Of a DNA stretch of 64,000 nt, positions 19,261-46,855 are shown piece by piece. The stretch's first letter is position 1, and each line of letters opens with the position of its first letter. Where the stretch lies: the NCBI RefSeq assembly GCF_900291465.1, contig NZ_LT985808.1, forward strand, positions 2,924,539 through 2,988,538, given 5' to 3'. Made by a program: the position numbers and the translations under genes. This DNA is from Bacteroides sp. Marseille-P3684. GTDB lineage: Bacteria > Bacteroidota > Bacteroidia > Bacteroidales > Bacteroidaceae. A model generated the notes under the pieces. That model worked only from the letters and a program-made list of their open reading frames with translations, had not been told where the DNA came from and did not search any database.

Positions 19261-19799
19261 TTTGACAAAATGTCAAATGAACCGCCTGAGAAGGCCCGTC
19301 CTCGCACCAAAATACAGTTTGGTGGATTCCGAGGCCCTTCTCGGACGATTCGCAAAATACACATGGATACCGATTCAAGCGGAATACAATCCTTGATGAA
19401 GGGATTAAGGCTGGATTTACTGTCCGAATAACACTCGGCACCTAGCTATTTCACGATTAATGAAAGCTTCCGATTTGTTGACATCACTCACCTTCTGGAG
19501 AGTGAAACTCGGTGTTTTTGCGTTTCATTTTCCAAAGATTTGACTTTCGCGAATGAAACAATATTGTTTGGGAGGTGAAACAATATTGTTTGACTTGCCA
19601 AACACAAGTGTTTGACGCCTGAAACAATAGTGTTTGAGCGTTAAAATGTAAAGATTCCGAAAACGAAGTGTATAGTTTTCTAAAATTGAAGACTTTTTAC
19701 TGCCTTCTCATTCACTTTATTTTGCAGTTACGCGCTAGTTTGTCGGAATTTCATCAAATACGAGTTAGCAGGAAAAGGCAATTCAGCCGATTCTGTCAA
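19261..19799 (+). repeat. Dispersed ~540-bp element, copy A
   Basis: The copy begins with the palindrome TTTGACAAAATGTCAAA and ends with TTCTGTCAA, giving TTGACA...TGTCAA termini. It contains an ATG-initiated short frame from 19270 (MSNEPPEKARPRTKIQFGGF), the block GGTGGATTCCGAGGCCCTTC, GGAGAGTGAAACTCG, a four-unit palindrome array and GTATAGTTTTCTAAAAT (19670-19686). The same blocks occur in the same order in copies B and C. Apart from the short frame, which is unlike any known protein, no gene is visible. It occupies the space between the alaS terminator and the amidase promoter. Confidence 0.85.
19555..19636 (+). repeat. Four 16-bp palindromes at 22-bp period (copy A)
   Basis: Units start at 19555, 19577, 19599 and 19621: GAAACAATATTGTTTG twice, CAAACACAAGTGTTTG, then GAAACAATAGTGTTTG, each separated by a different 6-base spacer. 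Unit 3 differs from unit 1 by paired changes that keep the symmetry. A 22-bp period puts each unit about two helical turns from the next. Confidence 0.9.
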
Positions 19800-19925
19800 C
19801 CATAAACGAGAAACAGGTTGCATTTTGAATACCGATACCCGACTCCTGTACCTGACGGTAAATCCCCATTCGGTTAAAATCAATGAAAACTATCTCCTTT
19901 TATCGGTTTTTCAAATCGAAAGCAC

Positions 19926-19933
19926 TACATTTG
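19926..19933 (+). promoter_or_regulatory. Promoter -7 box for the wall amidase
   Basis: TACATTTG matches TAnnTTTG and lies 8 bases before the ATG at 19942 and 17 before that at 19951. It makes the upstream in-frame ATG at 19825 unlikely as the start and predicts a very short leader. Confidence 0.6.
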
Positions 19934-19950
19934 CACAACGTATGGACACT

Positions 19951-21159
19951 ATGCATAAACGGATACGGAACATATGGAAGCGAATCTGCTGTTGGACGGG
20001 GCTGTGCCTTCTCCTGGCTTCTCCGCTGACTGCCAAAGACTTTACGGTAGTGCTCGATGCAGGGCACGGCGGACATGATGCCGGAGCTGTCGGGCGGATT
20101 TCCAAAGAAAAGAACATCAACCTGAAGGTGGCACTTGCCGTGGGGCGTCTGCTGGAACAGAACTGTCGCGACGTAGAAGTCGTCTACACACGCAAGACCG
20201 ATAAATTCATTCCGCTGCACGGACGTGCCGACATTGCCAACCGTGCCCAGGCAGACCTCTTCGTCTCCATCCACACCAACTCATTGCCCAAAGGGAAAAT
20301 CGCACGGGGAACGGAAACCTACACCCTGGGACTGCACCGGACAAAGGAAAACCTTGCCGTTGCCCAAAAAGAGAACTCTGTCATCCTCATTGAAAGCGAT
20401 TACAAACAACGCTATGCGGGCTTCAACCCCAATTCCGCAGAGAGCTACATCATGTTTGAGTTCATACAGGACAAGAACATGAAGCAGAGTGTCCGGCTGG
20501 CACAATCCATCCAACGTCAGTTCCGCACTACGGCGCGACGCAACGACCGGGGAGTGCGTCAGGCGGGATTTCTGGTCCTGCATGCTACCTCCATGCCCAG
20601 CGTCCTGGTCGAGTTGGGATACATTTCTACACCGGACGAAGAACGCTACCTGAATTCCGCACAGGGAGTGTCGGACCTGAGCCGCAGCATCTACAATGCC
20701 ATCCTTGACTACAAACGTCGCCAACCCGGCACATCGGGCGTCGGTGAACCGGCTGACCTGCCGGCTGAGGACAGCAACAACCTCCCGACAGAGGATGTCA
20801 GCGAAGAATCCGAATCCCGGGCAGAACCAGAAAAGACTCCGGAACCGACGGCTCCTGTTCCGTCTCAATCTCAGACTACCGCGGATGCACCTGTATTCAA
20901 GATTCAGATTCTCACCTCCTCCACCCGGCTGAAAACGAATGACCGCAGACTGAAAGGACTTGCTCCGGTCGAATATTATGTGGAAGGCGGACTGTACAAA
21001 TACACCTATGGTGCCTCTACCGACTACAACGAGGTCTACCGTACGCGAAAACAAATCCTGGCAAAATTCAAGGATGCCTTCATCATAGCCTTCCGGGGCA
21101 ATGAAAAGATGAACGTACAACAAGCTATCAAGGAATTCAAACAAAACAAACATAAGTAA
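19951..21159 (+). CDS. N-acetylmuramoyl-L-alanine amidase (AmiC-type)
   Basis: Zinc amidase that cuts the lactyl-amide bond between glycan and stem peptide. After a signal peptide (about residues 1-28, with GLCLLLASPLTA) comes the Amidase_3 domain with DAGHGGHDAGA, the Glu-bearing SAESYIMFEF region, SIHTNS and LVELGYIS. A Pro/Glu-rich linker (about 275-320) joins a C-terminal SPOR-like domain (FKIQILTSSTRL to GNEKMNVQQAIKEF). Two close ATGs, 19942 and 19951, are possible starts. mlaD-like gene follows after 12 bases, probably in one transcript. Confidence 0.92.
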   Translation: MHKRIRNIWKRICCWTGLCLLLASPLTAKDFTVVLDAGHGGHDAGAVGRISKEKNINLKVALAVGRLLEQNCRDVEVVYTRKTDKFIPLHGRADIANRAQADLFVSIHTNSLPKGKIARGTETYTLGLHRTKENLAVAQKENSVILIESDYKQRYAGFNPNSAESYIMFEFIQDKNMKQSVRLAQSIQRQFRTTARRNDRGVRQAGFLVLHATSMPSVLVELGYISTPDEERYLNSAQGVSDLSRSIYNAILDYKRRQPGTSGVGEPADLPAEDSNNLPTEDVSEESESRAEPEKTPEPTAPVPSQSQTTADAPVFKIQILTSSTRLKTNDRRLKGLAPVEYYVEGGLYKYTYGASTDYNEVYRTRKQILAKFKDAFIIAFRGNEKMNVQQAIKEFKQNKHK

Positions 21160-21171
21160 GACAGAACGACT

Positions 21172-22065
21172 ATGAAATATGTAACAAAGGAAGTCAAAAT
21201 CGCATGTGCCGGCATCGCTGCCGTGGCTGTACTCTTTTTCGGCATCAAATTCTTGAGAGGCATCAACATGTTCAAGGCCACCAACTACTACTATGTGGCT
21301 TATGACAACATCGGCGGTCTGACAGTGTCAAGCCCGGTCTATGCTGACGGATATAATATAGGTATCGTCCGCAACATCGACTATGACCATGAACGCCCGG
21401 GACACGTCACGGTCGAAATCGACGTGGAGGAAGGATTGCGCATCCCGAAGGGAAGTCAGGCGGAACTGGTGACTGAAATGCTCGGTACGGTGAAAATGAA
21501 CCTGCTCCTTGCCAACAACCCGCGCGAACGGGTCGAAGTGGGCGACACCATCCCCGGACATGGAAACAACGGACTCATGGGCGAAGCACAGAAAATGATT
21601 CCGGTCATCCAGCAGATGCTGCCCAAGATGGACTCCATCCTGGTTTCGCTCAACAAACTGTTGGCTGACCCCGCCTTGGCTGCAACCCTGCACAACACCG
21701 AGCAGATCACAGCCAACCTGAACACCACTACCCGTCAGATCAATCACCTCATGCAGAACGATATTCCCCAGCTGACAGGCAAGCTGAACCACATCAGCGA
21801 CAATTTCGTTAGCATCAGCGACAACCTTGCACAGACGGACTACAATGCCATGTTGCAACGCATCGATGCCACCCTTGCCGACATCACCCGGATGACCGAC
21901 AAGCTCAATGACAAGGACAACAACCTGGGTCTCCTGCTCAACGACAGCACCCTCTACAACAACCTGACCCGGACGACCGGTAATGCTGCCGATTTGCTGG
22001 AAGACCTGAAGGCACACCCCAAACGTTACGTCCATTTCTCCCTCTTCGGACGGAAGGACAAATAA
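21172..22065 (+). CDS. MCE/MlaD family lipid-transport protein
   Basis: Substrate-binding subunit of an MCE-type lipid transport system, 297 aa. An N-terminal membrane helix (about residues 8-27, ACAGIAAVAVLFFGIKFL) is followed by one MCE domain (about 35-115; NIGGLTVSSPVYADGYNIG, VTEMLGTVKMNLLL) and a long helical region ending near residue 285. It probably delivers lipids across the periplasm together with an ABC permease and ATPase encoded elsewhere; none is present here. It follows the amidase gene closely. A long hairpin lies downstream. Confidence 0.9.
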   Translation: MKYVTKEVKIACAGIAAVAVLFFGIKFLRGINMFKATNYYYVAYDNIGGLTVSSPVYADGYNIGIVRNIDYDHERPGHVTVEIDVEEGLRIPKGSQAELVTEMLGTVKMNLLLANNPRERVEVGDTIPGHGNNGLMGEAQKMIPVIQQMLPKMDSILVSLNKLLADPALAATLHNTEQITANLNTTTRQINHLMQNDIPQLTGKLNHISDNFVSISDNLAQTDYNAMLQRIDATLADITRMTDKLNDKDNNLGLLLNDSTLYNNLTRTTGNAADLLEDLKAHPKRYVHFSLFGRKDK

Positions 22066-22115
22066 GACGCCAAATAGCCTTTATCTAGAATCTGTCTAAA
22101 TTATTATTTAGAAAG

Positions 22116-22182
22116 AAGGAAGGCGAAGCGGGTGAGATAATCCTTTCGATATCAAAAGGAAAACATCCTCTTCGCCTTCCTT
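22116..22182. terminator. Nested hairpin between mlaD-like gene and dnaA
   Basis: AAGGAAGGCGAAG (22116-22128) pairs perfectly with CTTCGCCTTCCTT (22170-22182), and an inner TCCTTT/AAAGGA stem (22141-22160) is nested in the loop. No long U tract follows. It is the main structure in the gene-free stretch 22066-22421; the rest is A/T-rich leader with the dnaA promoter. Confidence 0.7.
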
Positions 22183-22344
22183 ATTCAAGGACTTTAAAGA
22201 GGAGTACAAAAACTAAAAGACTCTCACATACAGAGGCTTTCAAATACGCAAGTCTGAAGCCTTCATCCCCTTCCGAAAGCCCTAAAAGAACAACCTAATA
22301 ATGAGATTCTTACCATTACTTTCTAAATTCCAAGAAAAAGGAGA

Positions 22345-22376
22345 TTTGTTTTTTCTGATTTATATTGCCTATTTTG
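22345..22376 (+). promoter_or_regulatory. Putative dnaA promoter
   Basis: TTTG at 22345-22348 and TATTTTG at 22370-22376 with a 21-base spacer resemble the Bacteroidetes -33/-7 pair. The box is one base shorter than consensus. No DnaA boxes (TTATnCACA) were found in the 350 bases upstream of the gene. Confidence 0.4.
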
Positions 22377-22421
22377 CAGCGTAGAAGTTTTGACAAGTTA
22401 ATAAATGTTTGATTAAGCCCT

Positions 22422-23819
22422 ATGATGGAAAACAATCATGTAGAGCTATGGAATCGCTGTCTGCAAGTGATTAGAGACAACGTGCCTGAGCCTGCATTCA
22501 ACACGTGGTTCAAACCTATCATACCTCTGAAGTATGAGAACAAGACACTGACCGTGGAAGTCCCCAGCCAGTTCTTCTATGAGTTCATAGAAGAGAAGTA
22601 CCTGGGACTGCTGCGCTCTGTTCTCTATAAGGAAATAGGAGAAGGCACCCGGTTGATGTACAGCGTCTTGACAGACAAGACCAACCACATCACCACCAAA
22701 ATACCTTCGACCAACCAGCCGACTGTCCCGCAACCCCAGGCTGTGACGGGAGCCAATCGTACCCCGTTTACTCCCCAACAGACAGCTCCGGCACTCGATC
22801 CGCGCCTGAACCCCAAATACCGCTTCGACAACTTTATCGAAGGGGAAAGCAACAAGTTGCCCCGTACGGTAGCTGAAGAAGTAGCTCTCCGCCCCGCCAA
22901 GACGGCGTTTAACCCCTTGTTCATTTATGGTGCATCCGGTGTGGGAAAGACTCACTTGGTGAATGCCATCGGTGCGCGCATCAAGGAGCTCTATCCGCAA
23001 AAGCGTGTATTGTATGTATCCGCCAACCTGTTCCAAGTGCAGTTTGTGGACGCAACGTTGCGCAACAAGGTGACGGACTTCATCAATTTCTATCAGACCA
23101 TCGATGTCCTCATCATCGATGACATTCAGGAGTTCGCCGCCATGACGAAGACCCAGAACACCTTCTTCCACATCTTCAATCACCTGCATCAGAACGGCAA
23201 ACAGTTGATTCTGACGTCCGACCGTCCGCCTGTGGCACTGCAAGGCATGGAAGACCGCCTGCTCACCCGCTTCAAATGGGGACTACTCGCCGAACTGGAG
23301 AAACCCAACACTGAATTGCGCAAGAATATCCTGAAGGACAAGATTCACCGCGACGGACTGGAATTCCCCGAACCCGTCATCAATTTCATCGCTGAGAATG
23401 TCAATGAGAGTGTGCGCGACCTGGAAGGAGTGGTCAATTCATTGATGGCCTATTCGGCAGTCTACAACAAGGACATCGATATCAATCTCGCCGAAAGCGT
23501 GGTGAAGAAGATTGCCAAAGTCGAGAAGAAAGAAATTACCATCGATACCATCATCTCCAAAGTGTGCGAACACTACGACATCGAGAAAGAGAGTCTCCAC
23601 TCCCGTTCCCGCAAACATAATGTAGCGATAGCCCGTCAGGTAGCCATGTATCTGGCCAAGAAATACACCGACACGTCGTGTGTACGGATTGGAAAGCTCA
23701 TTGCCAAGCGCAACCACTCGACGGTGCTCCATTCCTGCAAGATGGTGCAGAACCAACTGGAAATCGATAAGAACTTCCGGAGCGAAATGGAAGAAATCGA
23801 AAACATGATCCGCTGCTAG
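22422..23819 (+). CDS. dnaA: Chromosomal replication initiator protein DnaA
   Basis: AAA+ initiator of 465 aa. Domain I (about 1-90) starts with [15 protein letters not shown]; a proline/glutamine-rich linker follows; domain III has Walker [11 protein letters not shown] and Walker [11 protein letters not shown]; domain IV has the DnaA-box-binding HTH with [15 protein letters not shown] and [11 protein letters not shown]. Start is ATG 22422 or 22425. The gene stands alone and converges on a nitroreductase gene with a CACAAAG-type hairpin between. No origin was identified nearby. Confidence 0.98.
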
Positions 23820-23881
23820 GAAGACGGCAGATATCCGGAAGACAACAGCCAGCAGACAAATACAACCCATCCGACATACAA

Positions 23882-23954
23882 CAAAGACACGAAATCACAG
23901 AGAGAAACCAATGATTGCCTGTCAAGGCTCTGCCTCTGTGACTTCGTGTCTTTG
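23882..23954. repeat. CACAAAG-type long intergenic hairpin, copy 3
   Basis: CAAAGACACGAA at 23882-23893 and TTCGTGTCTTTG at 23943-23954 are the outer part of 21-bp arms with one mismatch, continuing into TCACAGAG/CTCTGTGA. It lies between the convergent dnaA and nitroreductase genes. Confidence 0.8.
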
Positions 23955-23992
23955 CTTTTCCGGCTCTTGAGGAAAACAACTTCCTGAACCGT

Positions 23993-24733
23993 TTACTTCA
24001 GGAATCCCTGACGCTTCATGGCTGCCAGGTAGGTTTCCGACATGGCTTCGTTGTCCTTCTTCGTGTAACGGATATCCGTAAATATCTGAGCCAGGGTTTC
24101 CGTATGGTTGATTTCAACGAAATGTCTGTTCTCCGGCAAAGCCTCCTTATAGGCATACAGACGGTCGATATCTGCGGATGTATAGTCATGATAGGTCTCC
24201 TCATGCACAAAAGCTCCGGCAGGCAGACGGTCGGGCTGTTCGGGATGTTCGGCAGGATAACCTACGGTGACGGTCGTGACAGGCATCACCAGCTTGGGAA
24301 GCTTCAAGGTGTCAATCAACACGTCGGGCTGATAGATGGTCGTTCCCAGATAGCAGATGCCCAAGCCCTGCTCTTCGGCAAGCGTACAAAACGTCTGTGC
24401 ATAAAGCAAGGTATCGATGGAAGCATTCAGAAAGGACAGGAAATTATCATAACCCGGTACCGCCTTCCGGTTCTCACACCACACGCTTGTACGGTGGAAA
24501 TCGGCACAAAAGGTCAACACTACGGGCGCATCAGTCACCATCGGCTGGTTGAAATGTGCAGGAGCCAGCTTCTCCTTCATGGCGCGGTCGCGCGTAACGA
24601 CCACACTGTAGAGTTGCAAGTTTCCCATGGTCGAAGCTCGTCCGGCTGTCTCCAGCAACTCATCGAGCAATGCCGGTTCAATGGGTTTATCGGCATATTT
24701 GCGAATAGTCCGTCTTTGTTTTACGTGTTCCAT
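23993..24733 (-). CDS. Nitroreductase family protein (NfsA/FRP-like)
   Basis: FMN-dependent oxidoreductase of 246 aa. VKQRRTIRKYADKPI at the start is the FMN-phosphate-binding block of the family; GRASTMGNLQLYSVVV, ALNASIDTLLYAQTF-like and GLGICYLGTT blocks follow, and the C-terminal extension with FTDIRYTKKDNEAMSE is typical of NfsA/NADPH-FMN reductase-type members. Physiological substrate is unknown. A TAAATTTG box (24757-24764, minus) provides a promoter 23 bases upstream. Intact. Confidence 0.88.
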   Translation of the reverse strand: MEHVKQRRTIRKYADKPIEPALLDELLETAGRASTMGNLQLYSVVVTRDRAMKEKLAPAHFNQPMVTDAPVVLTFCADFHRTSVWCENRKAVPGYDNFLSFLNASIDTLLYAQTFCTLAEEQGLGICYLGTTIYQPDVLIDTLKLPKLVMPVTTVTVGYPAEHPEQPDRLPAGAFVHEETYHDYTSADIDRLYAYKEALPENRHFVEINHTETLAQIFTDIRYTKKDNEAMSETYLAAMKRQGFLK

Positions 24734-24756
24734 AAAGTAATATTGTTTTTACGGAA

Positions 24757-24764
24757 CAAATTTA
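24757..24764 (-). promoter_or_regulatory. Promoter -7 box for nitroreductase
   Basis: The minus strand reads TAAATTTG, matching TAnnTTTG, 23 bases upstream of the ATG. Confidence 0.5.
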
Positions 24765-24975
24765 AGGAATAATATGAAAGAGAGCTGTCAAGCGGACTTC
24801 TTTTTTTCAACAACTGACAATAACTTTTCAACAACTTCATTACCTATCTCCAATCAAAGTTTTTCCTTTTGGCAAACTTTTCATAGAAGCGAAATTCATA
24901 ACATACTAATAATCAACAGTCATTTATTCAGTTTTGGAAAACTTCATAAATAGGCATAAAATCTTTATTGAAAAT

Positions 24976-25006
24976 TTTGCCAATAGAGAAAACATGTATA
25001 GCTTTG
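24976..25006 (+). promoter_or_regulatory. Consensus promoter for the class II RNR gene
   Basis: TTTG at 24976-24979 and TAGCTTTG at 24999-25006 with exactly 19 bases between are a full match to the Bacteroidetes -33/-7 pattern. Transcription should start near 25013, leaving a leader of about 85 bases before the GTG. That is too short for a complete cobalamin riboswitch; only a partial B12-box-like CCGAGACCTGAC lies in it. Confidence 0.7.
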
Positions 25007-25097
25007 CCGACACATTCGTTAGCCCTGTCTCAACTTCTACAACCGAGACCTGACACTAAATTCAGAAATCAAGGACTAATACATAATACCTACCATT

Positions 25098-27638: not shown

Positions 27639-27681
27639 CCCACCAACCGACAACAAAGAAAATACAGAATCATAACCCATC

Positions 27682-27724
27682 ATACGTCCGCGCCCCGCAA
27701 AAAGCGCGGACGTATCTGTTTTTC
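27682..27724 (+). terminator. Terminator after nrdJ
   Basis: ATACGTCCGCGC (27682-27693) pairs perfectly with GCGCGGACGTAT (27704-27715), followed by CTGTTTTTCCC. The U run continues to the start of folB. Confidence 0.9.
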
Positions 27725-27738
27725 CCTTTTTACATCCC

Positions 27739-29989: not shown

Positions 29990-30178
29990 ACGAAAAAGAT
30001 GAGCCGCATTGGTAGAACTGGGAAACTCATCAATTACACTGAAATACCGAGATACGCTTCAATCTCCAATGGCGGGCCACGCCTTCGGGTAGCTTTAAGC
30101 CGGTGGATTACAAAGGGGATGAGCTCTCAAATCTTATTACTCGGAGTTTCATCGCATCACCAGTGCGGCTTTTTCATA
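29990..30178 (+). ncRNA. ssrS: Structured small RNA, probable 6S RNA (Bacteroidales-1 type)
   Basis: A region of about 185 bases with no credible ORF lies between a good promoter and a T run. GCCGCATTGGT near the 5' end pairs over 11 positions with ACCAGTGCGGC at the 3' end, which is followed by TTTTT. Inside, GAAACTC pairs with GAGTTTC, then an unpaired central region is followed by smaller hairpins (GAGAT/ATCTC and GGCG/CGCC). A long closing stem, large central bubble and terminal arm is the 6S RNA layout, which binds the housekeeping RNA polymerase. The identity is inferred from architecture and my recollection of the Bacteroidales-1 RNA; a covariance-model search would decide. Confidence 0.6.
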
Positions 30179-30224: not shown

Positions 30225-30297
30225 ATCCCCTCTCCATAACGGTTCCAACCATTCCCATCCGACATCTATATCCCCAAACAACGTGTGTATCGGCATT

Positions 30298-30815
30298 TGA
30301 CAAAATGTCAAACGAAGGGCGCCACAGTGCCTTTCCTCGCACCGAAATGCAGGTTGGTGGATTCCGAGGCCCTTCTCAGACGATTCGCAAAATACACTTT
30401 GTCATCGGTTCGCGTCGGATGACATACGTATGAGAATCGGAAGGACTGGGAACCTTTCTCACGGACATCTTGCGCCCGAATCCTCATCCATTTTATTACC
30501 CTCTGATTTTTTGACGCAGCACTCCTTCCAGAGAGTGAAACTCGAAGTTTTTCAGTTTCATTCTCCAAAGATTTGACTTCCGGGCACGAAACAATCGTGT
30601 TTGGAGGGGGAAACTATATTGTTTGACGCGGCAAACTATATTGTTTGGCTCGCGAAACAATATTCTTCCGGGCACGTTTTGTCTGTTTTCTGGAAATGGA
30701 ATGTATAGTTTTCTAAAACAGGAGACCTTTTCGAAGGTTTTCGTTCACGTTTCTTTGCACTTCATCGCCAACTTTAACCGGAATTTGAAAAGTGTGCGTT
30801 AGCGGAAAACAGCAA
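30298..30815 (+). repeat. Dispersed ~540-bp element, copy B
   Basis: The copy starts with TTTGACAAAATGTCAAA (about 30297-30313) and has the same ordered blocks as copy A: a short ATG frame (MSNEGRHSAFPRTEM), GGTGGATTCCGAGGCCCTTC, CAGAGAGTGAAACTCG, the four-palindrome array, GTATAGTTTTCTAAAA (30703-30718) and GTGCGTTAGCGG. Clear similarity to A and C fades near 30815. A TGTCAA at 30887-30892 might be a displaced right end. The following 240 bases up to the SusE-like gene hold leader sequence and no gene. Confidence 0.85.
30588..30669 (+). repeat. Four 16-bp palindromes at 22-bp period (copy B)
   Basis: Units start at 30588, 30610, 30632 and 30654: GAAACAATCGTGTTTG, GAAACTATATTGTTTG, CAAACTATATTGTTTG and GAAACAATATTCTTCC. 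Spacers are six bases and differ in sequence. The spacing equals that of copies A and C. Confidence 0.9.
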
Positions 30816-31056
30816 TTTGGGAAATAAGGGAAGCAGAGGATGGGATATGCTTTCAGAGTGTCAGCGGTCACCATACACCATGAATCTGTCAAACCAACTA
30901 CCCATTTCATTCAATAACTGATTTACACCGCATCTCTGAAGGATTCATGTCCGGCGGAACGGCAGGAGAACCTCTACATTTACGCACGAATTTCAGCAGT
31001 GAAATGAAAGACTAATTACCAAACTACCTGAATGTTTAACTTTAAATGAAACCTGT

Positions 31057-37454: not shown

Positions 37455-37515
37455 CAAAGTATTATACTTAGCCAGCCTAAGTATTATACTTAGACCCCCT
37501 AAGTATTATACTTAG
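37455..37515 (+). repeat. Three 17-bp palindromes at 22-bp period after susD
   Basis: CTAAGTATTATACTTAG occurs at 37477-37493 and 37499-37515, and as CAAAGTATTATACTTAG at 37455-37471. Each is a palindrome except at its centre; spacers are CCAGC and ACCCC. The 22-bp period is the same as that of the unrelated palindromes in the dispersed elements. Confidence 0.9.
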
Positions 37516-37692: not shown

Positions 37693-39294
37693 ATGAAACC
37701 ATCCCTTCTATTACTCAGCATCGCGTCCGCCCTCCTCGCCGGTTGCTCGGACAGCGACTCTCCCCTCACCCCCGACACCCCGCAGCAACCCGACTTCGTC
37801 AGCGTGGAGAAGGCAGTCAGCATCGACGCCGGCACCACCTACCAGACGATGCGCGGCTTCGGAGCCTCCGACTGCTGGACGGCGGACTACGTGGGGCAAT
37901 ACTGGACGCGTCAGCGTGACGCCATCAGCGAACTGCTCTTCTCCACGGACATCGCCGACGGAAGAGCCAAAGGCATCGGCCTCTCCCAGTGGAGGGTCAA
38001 CCTCGGTGGCGGCACAGCCGCACAGGGAGACGCCAGCGGCATCGACGAGAAGACACGCCGCGCCGCCTCCTTCCTCACCGGCACGGGTCAGTATGACTGG
38101 AACAACTGCCGCGGACAGCAATACTTCATGCAGCGTGCCAAGGACATGGGCTGTCCCTCGTTCGTCCTCTTCAGCAATACGCCCCCGGTGCAGTTCACGC
38201 GCAACGGCAAAGGGTTCTCTGCCAGCGGCGCCTGTTCCAACCTGAAGGAGGATGCCTACGACGACTTCGCCGACTACCTCGCCACCGTGGCGCAGCACTA
38301 CCTGCACGCGGGCTATCCCGTCACCCACCTGTCTCCCGTCAACGAGCCGCAATACAACTGGGACAGCGGACAGGAAGGCAGCGGCTGGCAGAACAGCGAG
38401 GTGGCACGCCTCATCCGGGAGCTGGACCGCGCACTGACCGACAAGCAGGCGGACGTGACCATCCTCCCCGGCGAAGCGGGCGACTGGGAATACCTCTACA
38501 AGACCAAGGGGGATGCCACACGGAGCAACGTCATCGCCGACTTCTTCACCCCCTCTTCCGCGGACTACATCGGCAACCTGAAGCATACCGCCAACCTCCT
38601 CTGCGGACACAGCTACTGGACCGACGGCACCTGGAACGGCATGCGCAAGGTGCGTCAGCAGGTGGCAGCGGCAGCCCAAGCCAAAGGCATCGAGCTGTGG
38701 CAGAGCGAGTGGAGCATGCTCGGCGACGGCTACAGCAGCGAGGAGTTCGTCGGCTATGACAAGGCGACGGAGATGGACATCGCCCTCTACATGTCCAAGG
38801 TCATCCACAACGACCTCACGCAGGCAGGCGTCGGCTCATGGAGCTTCTGGACGTCGATGGACGTGCCGCGCTGGGGGCACCAGAACCGCTTCCTGCTCAT
38901 CGCCCTGACACCTGCCGGAGGCGAGAACGGCGACCTCGCACAGGAGGGGAGCTACCGTCCGACTGCCACCCTGTGGGTGCTGGGCAACTACAGCCGCTTC
39001 ATCCGTCCGGGCTACGTCCGCATCCGGATGGACTACAACGAGTCGCGCCACTTCTTCGCCTCGGCATGGATGTCACCGGACAAGAAGGAGGTCGTCGCCG
39101 TCTACACCAACCTGACGAGCGACAAAGGCATCCGGCTCAGTGAGACCCACACCGGATGGCAGGGCAAGGCGGCGTCCGTCAGATTCTACACGACCACAGC
39201 CCGTAAGCAGCTGGCAGAGAGCAGCGTCAGCCCCGACGGCCCCGTCGTGCTCGAACCGATGAGCGTAACCACAGTCGTCTACCAACTCAACTGA
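37693..39294 (+). CDS. GH30 family glycoside hydrolase lipoprotein, probable endo-beta-1,6-galactanase
   Basis: The 533-aa product has a lipoprotein signal (Cys18 in LLAGCSDSD with acidic followers), so it should sit on the cell surface. The (beta/alpha)8 domain starts at QTMRGFGASDCW. The expected acid/base is Glu218 in SPVNEPQ, and the nucleophile Glu339 in LWQSEWSML. A C-terminal beta-domain (about 430-533) follows. The GIGLSQWRVNLGGG and SNTPPVQFTRNGKG blocks resemble the GH30 branch acting on beta-1,6-galactan. The subfamily is inferred; other beta-glycans are possible. An upstream ATG at 37660 precedes the signal peptide and was not used. Confidence 0.85.
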   Translation: MKPSLLLLSIASALLAGCSDSDSPLTPDTPQQPDFVSVEKAVSIDAGTTYQTMRGFGASDCWTADYVGQYWTRQRDAISELLFSTDIADGRAKGIGLSQWRVNLGGGTAAQGDASGIDEKTRRAASFLTGTGQYDWNNCRGQQYFMQRAKDMGCPSFVLFSNTPPVQFTRNGKGFSASGACSNLKEDAYDDFADYLATVAQHYLHAGYPVTHLSPVNEPQYNWDSGQEGSGWQNSEVARLIRELDRALTDKQADVTILPGEAGDWEYLYKTKGDATRSNVIADFFTPSSADYIGNLKHTANLLCGHSYWTDGTWNGMRKVRQQVAAAAQAKGIELWQSEWSMLGDGYSSEEFVGYDKATEMDIALYMSKVIHNDLTQAGVGSWSFWTSMDVPRWGHQNRFLLIALTPAGGENGDLAQEGSYRPTATLWVLGNYSRFIRPGYVRIRMDYNESRHFFASAWMSPDKKEVVAVYTNLTSDKGIRLSETHTGWQGKAASVRFYTTTARKQLAESSVSPDGPVVLEPMSVTTVVYQLN

Positions 39295-39299
39295 AACCC

Positions 39300-41705
39300 A
39301 TGAAACGATACATCTACCTCTTACTCCTCTGCGTGTGCTGCACGTTCCGCCTTCCGGCACAGGTGTCGTTCGGCGACGCCACACGCTTCAACGACGGCTG
39401 GCTGTTCCGGCTCGCCGACGACTCGCTGATGTCGCTCCCCACCTTCGATGACAAGGACTGGCGGAAGCTCGACCTGCCACACGACTGGTCGGTCGAGGGA
39501 CACCTCTCCCCCGACCTGGCAAGCTGCACCGGCTACCTGCCCGGCGGCATCGCCTGGTACCGGAAGCACTTCCGTGTGACAGACCGGGCAGCCCGCCACT
39601 ACATCTACTTCGAAGGCGTCTACAACCGCAGCGAGGTGTACCTCAACGGCCACCTGCTGGGCAAACGCCCGAACGGCTACATCTCGTTCCTCTACGACCT
39701 GACGCCCTACCTGCAGGAAGGCAACAATGTGCTTGCCGTACGGGTGGACCACAGCCGCTACGCCGACTCGCGCTGGTACACGGGGTCGGGCATCTACCGC
39801 GATGTGTGGATGGTGGCAGCCCCGGAAATCCATTTCGCCCAATGGGGCATCGGCTGGAAGCTGGTGCGCATGAGTGCCGGGAAGGCTACGGTCGACGTGG
39901 ATGTGCAAATCGAGAAACACACCGCCGCCACGCAGCCGCTGCGGGTCCGCTCAACCCTCTACGACGCGCAGGGGAAGGCAGTGGCGCACGCCACACAGAC
40001 GGTGAGGGAGCTCGCCCCCGGTACGGTCCGCCGAAGCCTGCGGCTGAGCATCTCCCATCCTCACGCCTGGGACCTCGACCGTCCGTATCTCTACACCCTG
40101 AAGACTGAACTGCTGAGCGGTGCGGAACGCATCGATGCCGCCACGACCCGCGTAGGACTCCGAACGCTGACCTTCGACGCCGACAAAGGCTTTGCGCTCA
40201 ACGGACGCTGGATGAAGGTGAAGGGTGTCTGCCTGCACCACGATGCCGGGGTGCTGGGCGCCGTCGTCCCTCCCGAAGTGTGGGAGCGTAGGCTGCGGAA
40301 CGTGAAGGAGGTGCTCGGAGCGAACGCCATCCGTCTGAGCCATAATCCGCAAGCCCCGGTCGTGTATGACCTCTGCGACAGCCTGGGCCTCCTCGTCATG
40401 GACGAAGCGTCGGACGAGTGGGAGTTCCCCAAGCGCAAGTGGGTCAAAGGGTGGAACGTGGGCGAACCGTCGTTCGACGGCTCCTTCGACTTCTTCGAGG
40501 AATGGATTGACCGTGACGTGACGGACATGGTCCGCCGCGACCGCAACCATCCGTCGGTCTTCCTCTGGAGCATCGGCAACGAGGTGGACTACCCCAACGA
40601 CCCGTACTCCCATCCGGTGCTGGACGGCACCTCCATCAACCAGCCCATGTTCGGCGGCTACAACCCGGACGCACCCGACGCCCTGCGCATCGGCGAGATA
40701 GCCAAACGGCTGGCAGCCTGCGTACGCAAGGTGGACACGAGCCGTCCGGTGACCGGAGCGCTGGCAGGCGTGGTCATGTCCAACCAGACCGCCTATCCGC
40801 AAGCGGTGGATGTGGTGGGCTACAACTACACGGAGAACCGCTACGACGAGGACCATGCCGCCTACCCGAAACGCATCATCTACGGCAGCGAGACGGGCTC
40901 CGGCATCGAAGCCTGGCAGGCGGTGAGAGACCGCGACTTCATCTTCGGACAGTTCATCTGGACGGGCATGGACTACCTCGGCGAGTCGGGCAGATGGCCT
41001 TCACGCGGACTGGGCACGGGACTGCTGGACTTTGCCGGCTTCGCCAAGCCGCGCGGACATCACCGTGCCGCCTTGTGGCGTGAAGACCCGGTGACCTACA
41101 TCGGCACCTATCCTGCCGCTCCCCGCCTCTCGCCCGATGCCTGGGACAGCTGGAACTACCGTCCGGACGAACCGGTACGCGTCGTGTGCTACACCAATGC
41201 ACCGCAAGCCCGCCTGCTGCTCAACGGCAAGGAAGTGGGCGCCCTGAAACCCAACGACGACCAGACCGGCATCATCAGCTGGGACATCCCCTTCCGGGAA
41301 GGAACGCTCCGTGCGGAAGGGTGCGATACCGACGGCAGGGTGCTGTCCGCCTACGAGATTGTCACCTCGGGCCGTCCCTATGCCTTGCGGGCGACGGCAG
41401 ACCGACACGTGTTGCGGGCAGACCGCGGCGTGGCACACATCCAGGTGGAAGTGGTGGACGAGAAAGGGACCGTCGTGAAGCTCAGCGACAACGACATCTC
41501 CTGCCACCTCGAGGGCCCGGCACGCCTGCTGGGACTGGAGAACGGCAACAACACCGACATGAGCGACTACACCGCCCGTCACCGCCGCGTCTTCCACGGC
41601 AACCTGTTGGCTTACCTTCAGGCCACGGGGGAGAAAGGAGAGATTGTCGTCCGCTTCACCTCTCCCCTCTTGCAGGACTGCGTCGTAAGGCTGAAGGCTG
41701 AATAA
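39300..41705 (+). CDS. GH2 family glycoside hydrolase, probable beta-galactosidase
   Basis: Exported enzyme of 801 aa (signal peptide about 1-20, ending LPAQ). The sugar-binding jelly roll (about 25-180) contains LPHDWSVEG and GGIAWYRKHF; an Ig-like domain follows; the TIM barrel has the acid/base Glu428 in WSIGNEVD and the nucleophile Glu531 in YGSETGSG. C-terminal Ig-like domains (DUF4982-type and after) complete it. It starts 6 bases after the GH30 stop, so both are expressed together; exo-action on products of the endo-enzyme is likely. Exact sugar is inferred. Confidence 0.9.
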   Translation: MKRYIYLLLLCVCCTFRLPAQVSFGDATRFNDGWLFRLADDSLMSLPTFDDKDWRKLDLPHDWSVEGHLSPDLASCTGYLPGGIAWYRKHFRVTDRAARHYIYFEGVYNRSEVYLNGHLLGKRPNGYISFLYDLTPYLQEGNNVLAVRVDHSRYADSRWYTGSGIYRDVWMVAAPEIHFAQWGIGWKLVRMSAGKATVDVDVQIEKHTAATQPLRVRSTLYDAQGKAVAHATQTVRELAPGTVRRSLRLSISHPHAWDLDRPYLYTLKTELLSGAERIDAATTRVGLRTLTFDADKGFALNGRWMKVKGVCLHHDAGVLGAVVPPEVWERRLRNVKEVLGANAIRLSHNPQAPVVYDLCDSLGLLVMDEASDEWEFPKRKWVKGWNVGEPSFDGSFDFFEEWIDRDVTDMVRRDRNHPSVFLWSIGNEVDYPNDPYSHPVLDGTSINQPMFGGYNPDAPDALRIGEIAKRLAACVRKVDTSRPVTGALAGVVMSNQTAYPQAVDVVGYNYTENRYDEDHAAYPKRIIYGSETGSGIEAWQAVRDRDFIFGQFIWTGMDYLGESGRWPSRGLGTGLLDFAGFAKPRGHHRAALWREDPVTYIGTYPAAPRLSPDAWDSWNYRPDEPVRVVCYTNAPQARLLLNGKEVGALKPNDDQTGIISWDIPFREGTLRAEGCDTDGRVLSAYEIVTSGRPYALRATADRHVLRADRGVAHIQVEVVDEKGTVVKLSDNDISCHLEGPARLLGLENGNNTDMSDYTARHRRVFHGNLLAYLQATGEKGEIVVRFTSPLLQDCVVRLKAE

Positions 41706-41732
41706 GCCCCTCGGGAAGATACCCCACACACA

Positions 41733-41801
41733 AGAGAGGCACAAAGACACCGGAACATCAGGACTCACAGGTCCCGTGCTCCGGTGTCTTTGTGCCTCTC
41801 T
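41733..41801. repeat. CACAAAG-type long intergenic hairpin, copy 4
   Basis: Arms at 41733-41754 and 41780-41801 pair perfectly over 22 bp; they include AGAGGCACAAAGACACCGG. The hairpin fills the gap between the convergent GH2 and hybrid-sensor genes and should end both transcripts. Confidence 0.85.
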
Positions 41802-41812
41802 GCTTATCCGGC

Positions 41813-44800
41813 TTATTCCTTCGTCTCCGCCTCTTCAGGCTCGCCCGCCCTTTCCTGACCGGCATAGCAGGAAGGCGGCACCCCGAACTGCTGCTTGAAG
41901 CACTTGCTGAAGTAGTAGGGGTCGCTGAAGCCCACCATGTAGCAGACCTCGGAGACGTTGTACTTCTGTTCGAGCAACAGCTCCGCCGACTTCTTCAGGC
42001 GGAGCAGGCGGATGTATTTGCTCGGGGTATAGCCCGTGATGCCGCACACCTTATTATTAAAGGTCGTGCGTCCCAGATGCATGGCGGTCATCAGGTCGTT
42101 GATGGACAGGGCGGGGTCTGCCAGACGCTGCCCGATGAGTGCGTTCAGTTCATCGATGAACTTCTGGTCGAGCTCGGAGGCAACCAGCACGTTGGTCTTT
42201 GCCGACGAGTCCCTGGAGAACTTGTCGCGCAGCTTGTCGCGTTGCTCGATGAGCTTCATGATGCAGGTCAGCAGGTATTTCAGGCTGAAGGGCTTGCCGA
42301 TGTAGAGGTCTGCCCCCTTCTTCATGCCTTCCAGCCGCTTGTCGGCAGAGTCCAGTGCGGTGAGCAGCACCACGGGGATGTGACAGGTGTTGAAGTCCTC
42401 CTTCAGGCGGCGTGTCACCTCAAAGCCATTCATGCCGGGCATCAGGACGTCGCAGATTATCAGGTCCGGGTTGTAGGCACGCGCCTCCTCCAGACCGGAC
42501 TTCCCGTCGGGCTTGGCATGCACCTCGAAGTAGCGGCTTATCTCCTCCTGCAGGAAGCGGCGCACATCGTCGTCGTCCTCGATAATCAACACCTTGCGTG
42601 GGTTCAGCGACGCACCGGGCTGGGGCAGGTCGTCCCGTCCGTCGGTCTCCGTCCCCTCCTCCCGGTCGAGGAAGGAGATTGCCGGGTCTTCCGCCTGCAG
42701 ACGGCTGGGCTTGAGGAAGTCTTTCTCCTCGTAGGCATCGGCATGCAGCGGAAGGGTCACGGTGAACACCGAACCTCCGCCCTCGTTCTCCCGGTAGGTG
42801 ATGGTCCCCTTGTGGATGTTGACCAGCTCGTGGGTCAGGTGCAGCCCCACTCCCACACTGTTGGCAGAGAAGCTGCTCTGCATGAAACGGTTGAACAGCT
42901 CGCCCCGTTTCTCCTTGGGGATGCCCACACCGGTGTCGGACACACTGATGTCCAGTGTTCCTGCCTCCTCGTTCACCTTGACACGGAAGAGCACCTGTCC
43001 GTTGGAAGGCGTGTACTTGAAGGCATTCGAGAGCAGGTTGTAGACCACCTTGTCCAGATTCCCCTTGTCGATGAACATGGTGTAGGATTCCACGGACGGC
43101 AGGAAGCGGAAGTCGATGTCCTTGGACGCAGCCATGTCCCGGAACGTAAGGAAGATTTCATAGAAGAACGCCATCACGTCGGTCTCTTCGAGCGAGAGCG
43201 CCAGCTTGTTGTTCTGCATCTTGCGGAACTCCAGCAACTGGTTGATGAGCCTCAGCAGGCGCAGGGTGCTCTTCTCCATGATTTTCAGAGACGGAAGCAT
43301 CTCGCGGGGAATCCGCTGGAAGCCGGCGATGCGCTCCAGTGCTCCCTGTATCAGGGTGAGCGGCGTCCGGAACTCATGCGAGATGTTGGTGAAGAACACC
43401 AGCTTGTACTCCGTCAGCTGCTTCTCCACCTCGATGCGGTTGCGCAACGTGTTGAACTTGTGTATCAGGCGGAAGAGCAGCCAGGCTATCAGGATGCACA
43501 GCAGGACGTAGAACAGGTAGGCCCACGTCGTCTGGTAGAAAGGCGGAGCAATGACGATGTCGAGTGTGGTCTCCTTGCAGCCCGTCGTCCCCGAGCCCTT
43601 GCAGGACTTCACACGCAGGACGTATTTGCCCGGCGGAAGGTTGCGGTAGATGGCGAAGTTCAACGACGACGGCGCCACCCACTCCTTGTCGTAGTTCTCC
43701 AGCTTGTAGGTATAGTTGGCTTCGTTCTCGGGCGAATAGTTGAAGGTCGAGAAGGTGATGATGAGGGAGTTCTGCTTGTGGTTCAGACGGAGGCGGTCCG
43801 TGTAGGCGATGTCGTTCTCCAGCGGAGAGCCGGGTGTGTTCGGACGGGTCTCGACCCCGTTGATGCGCAGGGAGGTCAGCACGACACGGTCGAATGCCCG
43901 GGAGGCATGGTTGCTCTTCACCGTACGCGGGTCGAACACCACCAGCCCGTAGTTCGAACCGAAGGCGATGCGTCCGTCGGGCAACATGCAACCGCTGTTC
44001 TCGATGTACACGTTCCCCAGCTCGAAGGCGGAGAAGAAGTAGTTCTGGAAGGAGTGGTCGGAAGGATTGAAGCAGGAGATACCGTACTCGGTGGAAATCC
44101 AGAAGCGTCCGTCACGGTCCTCGATGATGGACTGCACCATGTCGTTCACCAGTCCCTCGTTGGTCGTGTAGTGGCGGAAGGTGGAGCTGGCGAGGTCCTT
44201 GTCCGGCTGACAGACACAGATGCCCGCGCCCGACGTTCCCAGCCACATGCGTCCGTTGCGGTCCTCATACAGGCACTTGATTTCGTTGTTCCGCAGCTTG
44301 CCGTTCCGGCTGCTGAACTCCACATAGCGGTCAGAATCAGCCAACAGCTCCTCGGGACGGAAGACGAAGGCACCGTCGCTGGTCCCCACCCAGATCCGTC
44401 CGTTGTGGTCCTCCAGCAGGGAGCGCACCTGACGCTGCCCGTATGTCTTGTTCAGGAAATGACGGAAGGTGTAGGTGCCGTCAGCCTGTGGCACTGCCAG
44501 GTCCAGTCCGCCACCGAAGGTCCCTATCCACATGCGCCCCTTGCTGTCGCAGAGGAAGCAGAAGATGTGGTTGAACCCCAGGCTGCCGGGCTTCTCGCGG
44601 TCGCTGACGTACCATTTGCCGTCGATGCGCAGTCCGTTGCCGCGGCTGCCCAGCCACACTTTCCCCTGACGGTCCTCCGCCACGGCATAGATATTGGAAT
44701 GTTCAAAATGCTCCTTGGAGAGCACGTTGAGGTCGTTGTCACAGACATAGAGGCTGCCGTTGCGGGCACTGACCCAGATGTGTCCGTCGTCCTTCAGGCG

Positions 44801-46138
44801 GGTCACCACCCGGATGATGTTGGGAGCGCCCAGGCTGTTGATACCGTTGGGGTAGATACGCTGCACGCTCTCGTTCAGCACCGAGAGACGGGACACCCCC
44901 GTAAACTCCGAACTGATCCAGATGCCCTGGCTGCTGTCCTCCATCAGGTATTGCAGGAAGTTGGAACGGATGTGGCTCGAACCGTCCATGTTCGCCGTGA
45001 AGTGTTGCAGCTCTCCGGTGTGCAGGTCGTAGGCAAACAGCCCGTTCCCGTAGGTCGACATCCAGAGAATGTCGCGCGAGTCGTGCACGAAGCTGTAGCG
45101 TTCACGGTCGATGTACCCCATCTGATAGGGTTCCATCAGGCGGAAGTGGATGACCTCGTGCGTCTTCACGTTGACATGCCACACCACGCCGGTACCGTTG
45201 TACAGCCAGTAGTTGCCCCGGTTGTCCTGCGTCACCTGTGCATTGGGGATGTTGAGCTGTCCGGCGGACGTGAGCTGCCCCGTACGGGTATGCAGGACAT
45301 AGCCTCCCCGGGTGGTGAAGATATACCAGTCGTCCTGCAACGACAGGGTCCCCAGGACGGACTCTTCAACGACACGGGGGATGCGTGCCACCTCGACGGG
45401 AGTCTCGCTTCCGTCTTCAATGGCAGAGATGACGCCGCGCGAAGAGAGGAAATAGACTGCCTTCCCGAACGACTGTGCCGCATAGGCATTCGGGTCGCGG
45501 ACCAGCAGACGTGTCTTGCCGTCCTGCTCCGTCAGAGCCACCCCCTTGTCCATACCGATCCAGATGCGTTGACGGTAGTCCTCATAGACATAGGTCACAT
45601 GATTGGAAGGGAGGTTGCCCTTCTCCTGCTTGAAAGCGATGGACCTGAATCCGTCGCCGTCAGGTCGCTTGCGGTAGCAGATCCAGCGACATCCGTTCGA
45701 CTTGTGCCACAGCCAGATGTCGCCAAGAGACGTCTGAAGCTTGCTCCCGTAGCGTTCGCCGTATTCCCCGCATCCGGTGAAGTCGACGAAGCATCCGTGG
45801 TTCAAATCGTAGCAGCTGTACATCTCGTTGGTCAGGTTGATCCACAGGAAGCCGTGCTTGTCCTCATCAATCCGGCGGATACGGTGGTCAGCCAGCGAGA
45901 GCTTGTCGGTCTCGGGATAGAAATTCAGGAACGAGCTGCCGTCGTAGCGGCTCAGTCCGTTGAGCGTTCCCATCCAAAGGAACCCTTTGCTGTCCTGGAA
46001 GATGCAACGGATGGAGTTGTTGGCAATGCCGTCGTGGGTGGTCATGTGACGGGAACGCACTTCCACCGACGCCCACAGATACAGGGGCAGACAAAACAGA
46101 AGGGTACAGAGGAGTGAGGTCTTATGTCGTATATCCAT
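41813..46138 (-). CDS. Hybrid two-component system sensor/regulator (HTCS) of the polysaccharide locus
   Basis: One-protein signalling system of 1441 aa. A signal peptide leads into a periplasmic pair of seven-bladed propellers (about 25-770, repeated W-MGT/WIGT blades) and a Y_Y_Y domain (about 790-860). A membrane helix spans about 872-892. The kinase has phospho-acceptor His921 in SHEFRTPL and an ATPase domain; the receiver has Asp1230 in CDVLMPG; an AraC-type HTH closes the protein (about 1335-1435). It probably binds an oligosaccharide released by the locus and turns on the SusCD genes. A TATCTTTG box (46165-46172, minus) is its promoter. Confidence 0.95.
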   Translation of the reverse strand: MDIRHKTSLLCTLLFCLPLYLWASVEVRSRHMTTHDGIANNSIRCIFQDSKGFLWMGTLNGLSRYDGSSFLNFYPETDKLSLADHRIRRIDEDKHGFLWINLTNEMYSCYDLNHGCFVDFTGCGEYGERYGSKLQTSLGDIWLWHKSNGCRWICYRKRPDGDGFRSIAFKQEKGNLPSNHVTYVYEDYRQRIWIGMDKGVALTEQDGKTRLLVRDPNAYAAQSFGKAVYFLSSRGVISAIEDGSETPVEVARIPRVVEESVLGTLSLQDDWYIFTTRGGYVLHTRTGQLTSAGQLNIPNAQVTQDNRGNYWLYNGTGVVWHVNVKTHEVIHFRLMEPYQMGYIDRERYSFVHDSRDILWMSTYGNGLFAYDLHTGELQHFTANMDGSSHIRSNFLQYLMEDSSQGIWISSEFTGVSRLSVLNESVQRIYPNGINSLGAPNIIRVVTRLKDDGHIWVSARNGSLYVCDNDLNVLSKEHFEHSNIYAVAEDRQGKVWLGSRGNGLRIDGKWYVSDREKPGSLGFNHIFCFLCDSKGRMWIGTFGGGLDLAVPQADGTYTFRHFLNKTYGQRQVRSLLEDHNGRIWVGTSDGAFVFRPEELLADSDRYVEFSSRNGKLRNNEIKCLYEDRNGRMWLGTSGAGICVCQPDKDLASSTFRHYTTNEGLVNDMVQSIIEDRDGRFWISTEYGISCFNPSDHSFQNYFFSAFELGNVYIENSGCMLPDGRIAFGSNYGLVVFDPRTVKSNHASRAFDRVVLTSLRINGVETRPNTPGSPLENDIAYTDRLRLNHKQNSLIITFSTFNYSPENEANYTYKLENYDKEWVAPSSLNFAIYRNLPPGKYVLRVKSCKGSGTTGCKETTLDIVIAPPFYQTTWAYLFYVLLCILIAWLLFRLIHKFNTLRNRIEVEKQLTEYKLVFFTNISHEFRTPLTLIQGALERIAGFQRIPREMLPSLKIMEKSTLRLLRLINQLLEFRKMQNNKLALSLEETDVMAFFYEIFLTFRDMAASKDIDFRFLPSVESYTMFIDKGNLDKVVYNLLSNAFKYTPSNGQVLFRVKVNEEAGTLDISVSDTGVGIPKEKRGELFNRFMQSSFSANSVGVGLHLTHELVNIHKGTITYRENEGGGSVFTVTLPLHADAYEEKDFLKPSRLQAEDPAISFLDREEGTETDGRDDLPQPGASLNPRKVLIIEDDDDVRRFLQEEISRYFEVHAKPDGKSGLEEARAYNPDLIICDVLMPGMNGFEVTRRLKEDFNTCHIPVVLLTALDSADKRLEGMKKGADLYIGKPFSLKYLLTCIMKLIEQRDKLRDKFSRDSSAKTNVLVASELDQKFIDELNALIGQRLADPALSINDLMTAMHLGRTTFNNKVCGITGYTPSKYIRLLRLKKSAELLLEQKYNVSEVCYMVGFSDPYYFSKCFKQQFGVPPSCYAGQERAGEPEEAETKE

Positions 46139-46164
46139 AGTTCAGGAGGTTCGTAATCAACGGA

Positions 46165-46172
46165 CAAAGATA
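46165..46172 (-). promoter_or_regulatory. Promoter -7 box for the HTCS gene
   Basis: The minus strand reads TATCTTTG, matching TAnnTTTG, 27 bases upstream of the start codon. Confidence 0.5.
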
Positions 46173-46213
46173 GGGATTTCTTTTCAAACCGCGACACGAA
46201 CCCCCGAACTGTC

Positions 46214-46270
46214 CTAGCGCAGGTATTCAGCAAAGAAGCTCTCGATGGCGTCGAAGGGTATTCCGCTCAA
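46214..46270 (-). pseudogene. Possible 3' end fragment of a lost gene
   Basis: The minus strand encodes LSGIPFDAIESFFAEYLR followed by TAG, with a stop immediately upstream. It reads like the C-terminus of an alpha/beta-hydrolase or similar enzyme cut off by insertion or deletion next to the dispersed repeat copy C. Eighteen codons are too few to be sure; it may be chance. Confidence 0.2.
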
Positions 46271-46319
46271 TCATTCCCAATTTGAGTCAAACAAAACGCA
46301 ACCCATTCTTCCCTTCTGC

Positions 46320-46855
46320 TTGACAAAATCACCGGAATCTCTATCTTCCGCTAACGCATACTTTTGGAAATTCCATCAAACTAGCGAGCAAATGCAAAGT
46401 AATGCTAACGAAAGTCGCTCAAAAAGCCTCCAATTTTAGAAAACTGTACATCTCAATTCCAAGATATTTACATTTCAACGCCCAAAGAATATTGTTTGAC
46501 CTGCGAAACACAAGTGTTTGATGAGTCAAACAATATAGTTTCACTTCTCAAACAATATTGTTTCATCCGTGAAAGTCCAATATTCGGGAGATGAAGGAGA
46601 GAAATCTCAAGTTTCACTCTCCAGAAGATGAGTCGCGTCAATAAATCGGAAGCTTTCATAAAGCATCACGAAGCATCCACCGTGCGTTAGCAATGAAGGA
46701 CTTCACACGTATAACCGGTCACGAAGACAGTATCCAGCACAAATAGGCATCAAAGTGAATTTTGCAAATCGCCTGAGAATGCCACGAAATTCACCAAATC
46801 GTATTTTAGTGCGAGGAAAGGCACTCTCAGGCGGTTCATTTGACATTTTGTCAAG
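46320..46855 (-). repeat. Dispersed ~540-bp element, copy C (inverted)
   Basis: In minus orientation it begins TTGACAAAATGTCAAATG and ends GATTTTGTCAA, so its ends form a perfect 10-base inverted repeat (TTGACAAAAT). The ordered blocks of copies A and B recur: an ATG frame (MSNEPPESAFPRTKIRFGEF), CTGGAGAGTGAAACTTG, the palindrome array (46483-46564), GTACAGTTTTCTAAAAT and GTATGCGTTAGCGG. It fills most of the gene-free region between the HTCS and superoxide dismutase genes. Confidence 0.85.
46483..46564 (-). repeat. Four 16-bp palindromes at 22-bp period (copy C)
   Basis: Units on the plus strand start at 46483, 46505, 46527 and 46549: CAAAGAATATTGTTTG, GAAACACAAGTGTTTG, CAAACAATATAGTTTC and CAAACAATATTGTTTC. 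Spacing is again 22 bp with 6-base variable spacers. Confidence 0.9.

Follow-up and report, generated by a model that had tools for sequence, protein, structure and literature searches.

What does a non-coding repeat of ~570 bp do that stands between the genes at several places in a single stretch of DNA? The stretch, called the window below, is 64,000 nucleotides long (positions 2,924,539 to 2,988,538 of contig NZ_LT985808.1 of Bacteroides sp. Marseille-P3684), and a first-pass annotation, made from the letters without database searches, had recognized the repeat there and proposed that it was either a non-autonomous mobile element akin to the miniature inverted-repeat transposable elements (MITEs) or an exapted regulatory repeat. 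The genome carries at least 108 such elements, here called framed elements, whose central palindrome arrays have a 22-bp period, as do those of a further family that lacks the frame. The array type depends on position along the chromosome, the loci keep apart from one another, and a second species has arrays of unrelated sequence with the same period. The "exapted" half of the earlier proposal fits best, and the explanation that we tentatively put forward is that these are sites that organize the chromosome, bound by a protein that assembles in 22-bp steps.

Anatomy and copy number of the framed element

The genome, 3.7 Mb in 3 contigs, is assigned to Phocaeicola; among named DnaA proteins the closest to its own, at 89% identity, comes from P. 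coprophilus An818. A first search with one window copy, copy A, gave ~40 further places, and the models used for the genome searches represented the array (R1) and the left end (R2). The searches of this genome scored 40 of 120, 150 of 901, and 150 of 1,033 candidates, so that the copy numbers are lower bounds. The map combines 78 copies with 34 further left ends, from which five partial ones (L179 to L183) were dropped and to which L042, with a damaged left end, was added. It holds 45 type I, 34 type II, and 28 type III elements and 1 that is unclear, the types being assigned by regular expressions chosen after the sequences were read. The three good copies and one degenerate copy of the first-pass annotation are those of the window and a small part of the family.

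Framed elements are near-constant in length. In the 39 copies that were aligned, a left end of ~110 bp, made of TGWCAAA repeats and an imperfect hairpin of ~85 nt that is almost perfect in some copies, is followed by ~85 bp that are nearly unconserved in sequence and near-constant in length. Beyond these come a conserved block, the array of four palindromes, and GTATAGTTTTCTAAAAT, before the right end closes the element. Types I to III have their ends in common and differ in their central arrays, which are AAACAnnnnTGTTT-like palindromes in types I and II and units built on GGACNNGTC in type III. The four-palindrome array had been noticed before; its 22-bp period had not. Self-match at lag 22 is 0.60, 0.62, and 0.47 in types I, II, and III, compared to ~0.24 to 0.25 at other lags, and is the strongest or joint strongest in all three; peaks at lags 22 and 44 are found in types I to IV. 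A one-base insertion in the array occurs in 2 of 39 copies.

Type IV is a family of ~100-bp arrays without the frame, with at least 48 loci (39 listed up to 3.19 Mb and 9 from another search, the list being incomplete beyond 3.19 Mb). Two type IV units 22 bp apart, with up to 2 mismatches, have 126 forward matches in this genome and 0 in the reversed pattern. One locus (G000:C1:1443816-1444180) has at least 17 tandem units at the 22-bp period, compared to the usual three. The window contains the following features.

19262..19829, plus strand: copy A, a type I element, with its right end extended past the earlier limit to GCATTTTGA
19262..19374, plus strand: left-end block of copy A, TGWCAAA repeats and an imperfect hairpin of ~85 nt (DNA fold z -4.2)
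19555..19637, plus strand: array of copy A, four AAACAnnnnTGTTT-like palindromes at a 22-bp period
19670..19686, plus strand: block GTATAGTTTTCTAAAAT of copy A, a hallmark of type I
30297..30864, plus strand: copy B, a type I element
30588..30668, plus strand: palindrome array of copy B, 22-bp period
46287..46854, minus strand: copy C, a type I element
46484..46564, minus strand: palindrome array of copy C
2444..3013, plus strand: copy D, worn, with the left end and GTATAGTTTTCTAAAAT retained, the array gone, and the right-end model failing
37457..37515, no strand assigned: type IV array, three AAGTATTATACTT palindromes at a 22-bp period, without the 570-bp frame

Iterated nhmmer searches seeded with copy A bear out the positions reported for all four copies, with matches at 19262-19797 (A, 472 bits), 30297-30824 (B, 472 bits), 46854-46322 on the minus strand (C, 426 bits), and 2444-2965 (D, 210 bits). 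The perfect 10-base inverted ends described for copy C, TTGACAAAAT...ATTTTGTCAA, are present (10/10), and copy A has the reported single mismatch (9/10). The element is real, but its extent of ~540 bp was set too short, since the consensus runs ~33 bp further right, to ...GCTTTCTTTTTGACA; the inverted repeats of the family consensus match at 9/10 at the earlier right end and read TGWCAAA...TTTTTGACA at the extended one. The claim that every copy lies between genes holds nearly throughout: 105/107 overlap no called gene by >30 bp, the genes having been called with our own hexamer script, and the exceptions are L025 (by 42 bp) and L168. Directly left of copy B, at window positions 30002-30176, Rfam places a Bacteroidales-1 RNA, for which a 6S function has been suggested.

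The first-pass annotation had proposed that the copies be aligned and a profile built and searched against the genome. Besides the many further copies that this brought to light, 39 copies align over 585 columns, of which 198 are ~97% identical pairwise and 152 are ~33% identical; because conservation was the criterion by which these columns were chosen, some of the contrast is inherent in the choice, yet two such classes would not arise in a repeat that evolves uniformly. The distances between blocks differ by 0 to 2 bases in most copies. With near-random spacers beside intact blocks, the resident copies look functional.

Structured non-coding RNA genes would account for the long left-end hairpin, present in most of the seven copies tried (left-end DNA fold z -9.5 to -0.7), and for whole copies that fold better than shuffles (mean z -3.2), yet the palindromes and the left end account for the fold signal, which appears on both strands. 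RNAalifold predicts 26 pairs with 1 two-sided change and -12.8 kcal/mol over the 585 columns. Across 54 copies, 76.8% of cells in the left hairpin are paired, and sliding the hairpin gives no more than 47%; its covariation is nevertheless not clear, since 50 of 500 shuffles score at least as high. None of the Rfam families that reach gathering score overlaps a copy. We regard RNA genes as very improbable. A coding role was also rejected: an open frame covers the left half in many copies, but single-base gaps disrupt it, and the conserved columns have no clear three-base rhythm by eye.

Target duplications, which had been suggested as a check on mobility, gave no signal for k = 4 to 8 in the 97 of 112 copies whose right terminus could be located when same-site pairs were compared with shuffled ones (smallest P = 0.096); right termini were placed by motif with up to 2 mismatches, and power is limited if the insertions are old. 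Of all 112 left ends, 105 have a right end at the standard distance according to a right-end profile, which matched none of the 112 upstream control stretches, so that no gene-carrying autonomous copy was seen among these left ends, transposases as such not having been searched for. The right end is likewise at its standard distance in 105 of the 107 mapped elements tested; the exceptions, copy D and L168, are without a recognizable right end and are still counted among the 108. This profile test with its control is preferred to an earlier one by loose 7-base words (108/112), discarded because chance matches would be frequent.

The copies that are 92 to 99% alike might have been taken for recent transpositions, but five of them (L028, L029, L031, L032, and L035, at ~945, 3620, 1677, 3314, and 2609 kb) share, in the same orientation, a 98% identical rrn-operon flank. 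This flank is the 16S rRNA gene, starting ~0.56 to 0.71 kb from the element, in 3/3 loci searched and presumably in the other two. Most of the strong likeness between copies thus goes with rrn operons; rrn sharing leaves unexplained that L027 and L035 are 94.7% alike over -66 to 513, though L027 has no rrn flank. L032 is a partial tandem duplication. Elements are often adjoined by another short palindrome repeat, GGGCGACCAGACCGGTCGCCCCTAC, on the left in the rrn-linked copies and on the right in many type III copies, and runs of CAATTGTCAATTG likewise adjoin elements at those flanks.

Because these tests revealed neither target duplications nor an autonomous copy nor clear RNA covariation, a plain MITE is disfavored; the sharing of the rrn flank by the likest copies also speaks against it, as do blocks still ~97% identical beside near-random spacers and the way in which copies avoid one another and an unrelated array family. 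An old, decaying MITE family with no present role would explain the short terminal inverted repeats, the many copies, and the few worn ones, such as copy D and the five partial left ends, but not intact blocks beside near-random spacers, near-constant length, or the spacing described below, and we consider it quite improbable.

Placement along the chromosome

The GC skew becomes positive near 740 kb and negative again between ~2.05 and 2.48 Mb, positions taken as the origin and terminus, the former placed from sampled stretches only. Type III elements (n = 28) lie a median of 123 kb from the origin, type II elements (n = 34) 706 kb, and type I elements (n = 45) 1,049 kb. The relation between type and distance is strong (Kruskal-Wallis P = 1e-11; I versus II, P = 0.003) and persists without the five rrn-linked copies (P = 2e-11). 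Twenty of the 28 type III copies lie within 300 kb of the origin, a zone that had seemed poor in elements, wrongly, since type III occupies it. Confinement to a zone is weaker for types II and IV and is not seen for type I (Kolmogorov-Smirnov [KS] P = 0.08); the median distance of type IV is 1,249 kb. Within 280 kb of the origin 16 of 20 type III copies point away from it (18/28 overall, P = 0.18), and types I and II have no clear direction relative to it (16/45 and 17/34). No clustering of type I with I or of II with II was found along the chromosome.

The elements also keep their distance from one another. Only 2 gaps among the 108 framed elements are shorter than 8 kb, compared to 22.3 expected under uniform placement (2 and 20.3 without the five rrn-linked copies). 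Under a 60-kb local jitter, 0 framed pairs fall within 5 kb where 16.5 are expected and 2 at 5 to 7.5 kb where 8.3 are expected; pairs at 25 to 30 kb are in excess (28 versus 17.1), this being one bin of several. Within four zones the coefficient of variation (CV) of the gaps is 0.50 to 0.63 (P from 0.042 to <1e-4). Type IV loci likewise avoid framed elements, with 2 within 5 kb compared to 11.2 expected, and all 156 loci together have a mean gap of 23.8 kb, a CV of 0.69 versus 0.99, and 2 gaps shorter than 5 kb where 29.4 are expected. No further arrays were found in three 20-kb samples (L185, L186, and L188).

Part of this pattern would follow if the framed element were a selfish, non-autonomous one, spread in trans and with long requirements in cis, whose end- or array-bound protein blocks insertion nearby and whose types are competing lineages. 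Such a mobile past is favored by the ends common to three types, by copies on both strands, and by the lack of a homologue in the other species searched, and the exclusion radius of ~5 to 7 kb and the greater likeness of neighboring type III copies would fit it as well. Type IV, however, has none of the shared ends and still avoids framed copies, so that exclusion by end-binding alone does not explain the spacing. The missing target duplications and autonomous copy, within the scopes given above, and the blocks kept intact despite near-random spacers are further points against a selfish element, and we judge it unlikely.

Arrays in other species

Among the genomes searched, the framed family itself was recognized only in this one. 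A DNA search with copy A in 40 relatives gave no copies, and of 15 genomes of the genus searched with R1, only G005 and G011 gave matches, weak ones, to 22-bp arrays whose sequence is different. R2, for which the best 9 candidates were scored in each of 393 genomes of the order, matched this genome and, weakly, two others, one apparently coding; these we judged to be due to chance. The left-end model weakly matched a different repeat shared by contigs C6 and C8 of G338, from another family (L194 and L191). The array pattern had 0 matches in genome_contigs and 0 in viral_contigs, where records near this genome may be absent. Among 399 genomes of the family, this one included, only three others match type IV; they belong to two other genera and none to the genus. 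The reversed control is not a pure null in G006, where its six matches, TTCATANTATGAA units 22 bp apart, are probably another array family. At the copy A locus, no matched genus mate has both neighboring genes on one contig, so that gene order is not kept there.

The period recurs with other sequences. In 572 kb of G008, another Phocaeicola species, an array family of unrelated sequence occupies 57 loci, all outside called genes (57/57), with a self-match of 0.65 at lag 22 compared to a mean of 0.27 over lags and a further peak at lag 44 (55 arrays). Later stretches of this genome were obtained so that the spacing could be tested afresh. The 44 arrays on contigs C1 to C4 leave 40 gaps, with a CV of 0.49 and none shorter than 4 kb, whereas three nulls restricted to intergenic positions give CVs of 0.78 to 0.83 and 9.4 to 11.5 such gaps (P < 2e-4). 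When arrays of three units were sought without guidance at every period between 14 and 45, period 22 made up 30/48 in G008, 10/12 in G011, 4/8 in G001, 1/3 in G005, and 1/1 in G003, and 6/9, 6/10, and 40/48 in this genome; it made up 1/3 in 79 dnaA loci, nearly all from other genera, and 0/1 in G338. Shuffled sequence yielded one array in total and none at 22.

Two further explanations draw on these data. If the arrays were operators or promoters that bind regulators of neighboring genes, the frequency of divergent regions would be expected: 25/78 type I and II copies (26/78 on a recount) and 22/57 G008 arrays lie in such regions, compared, in G008, to 49/399 adjacent gene pairs, and the right-hand gene points away from the element in 49/77 copies. 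Type III does not favor these regions, with 7 of its 28 copies divergent and 10 convergent, which slightly lowers this explanation. The neighboring genes have no evident common function (29 proteins, by eye), so that a regulon was rejected, and gene regulation gives no reason for the mutual spacing, the zones of origin distance, or one period in unrelated arrays; we give operators somewhat less credence than a selfish element. Self-recognition tags, comparable to the sequences used in DNA uptake or repair and distributed evenly enough for every fragment to have one, would match the species-specific, intergenic motifs and their even spacing in G008. Zone-specific types on one chromosome would then be unexpected, and the arrays are sparser and longer than known uptake sequences; tags seem improbable.

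A proposed role and known systems

We return to chromosome-organizing sites. That the framed elements and type IV arrays act in place is proposed because of the common period, the even spacing in the second species, the relation of type to origin distance, and blocks that stay intact where the adjacent spacers are near-random. We infer that a protein binds the arrays, that the arrays serve chromosome organization, and that specificity changes between species. The two kinds of site would be markers set at intervals along the chromosome and would probably serve a putative DNA-binding protein as anchors or boundaries; this protein would assemble on 22-bp steps, or two helical turns, and may bridge or bound loops. 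With the shift of array type along the distance from the origin, different binding specificities might mark different zones, as macrodomain sites do. This is the account that we favor, well short of confidence. A wider form, in which arrays of 22-bp period form a position-coded grid on the chromosomes of the Bacteroidaceae, a conserved kind of protein that assembles on DNA reads them and turns over in specificity together with its arrays between species, and, in the window's species, separate types mark the origin, arms, and terminus at intervals of ~10 to 30 kb, strikes us as more doubtful.

Several observations weigh against these sites as chromosome organizers. The binding protein and its function are themselves inferences, and, since none of the other species searched yielded the framed family, a basic cellular role would need fast turnover of the motif. 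Over the whole circle the framed copies are uneven (CV 1.09 versus 0.99; a gap of 299 kb, P = 0.014), a result of their growing sparser near the terminus; their regularity is local, or emerges once type IV is added. The terminus bias of type IV is only mild (KS P = 0.029), and its distance from the origin is no different from that of type I (P = 0.33). Type III copies are more alike the nearer they lie (rho -0.33, P = 0.011), as local spreading would also make them. The nulls for this genome were uniform or jittered and not restricted to intergenic regions, and the types, zones, and tests were defined post hoc, after the data were seen.

To our knowledge, little is known of chromosome organization in the Bacteroidota, major gut bacteria. 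More than 100 spaced non-coding elements, with types that follow origin distance and with relatives that have their own versions, hint at an unrecognized form of it. Zone-specific arrays that share only the 22-bp period would offer handles, as bait DNA for the protein and as defined sites for deletion or imaging, and motif turnover, if true, would exemplify in bacteria a spacing rule that is conserved while the sequence is particular to each species. The period and spacing call for explanation even if the role proves different. A literature search, with most subscription journals outside its reach, found no title or abstract describing such arrays.

Several known systems bear comparison. Plasmid iterons consist of a few units at a spacing of ~22 bp, a period that the arrays here share, but at more than 100 chromosomal sites set at intervals. 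DNA uptake sequences form species-specific dialects and are dispersed, and so are these arrays, which are much sparser and longer and have zone-specific types. Repetitive extragenic palindromic (REP) sequences and bacterial interspersed mosaic elements (BIMEs) are intergenic, palindromic, species-specific, and found in arrays. The elements here have all of these traits; they differ in that their period is a constant 22 bp and their frame has a fixed length, and in their mutual spacing and zones. REP/BIME repeats are bound by gyrase and IHF (PMC2267715). MITEs are short, non-coding, repeated sequences with short terminal inverted repeats (PMC10969869), a description that suits the elements here; the latter are set apart by the lack of target duplications and of any autonomous relative seen, by the constraint on resident copies, and by their spacing. 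The matS site, bound by MatP in the Ter macrodomain of Escherichia coli, is 13 bp long and occurs 23 times in 800 kb (PMC3330122). In both systems short sites are repeated across one zone of a chromosome, and type IV palindromes are likewise of 13 bp and lean towards the terminus; the present arrays differ in having 3 to 4 units at a 22-bp period, in the spread of several types over the entire chromosome, three of them with a 570-bp frame, and in motifs that vary by species.

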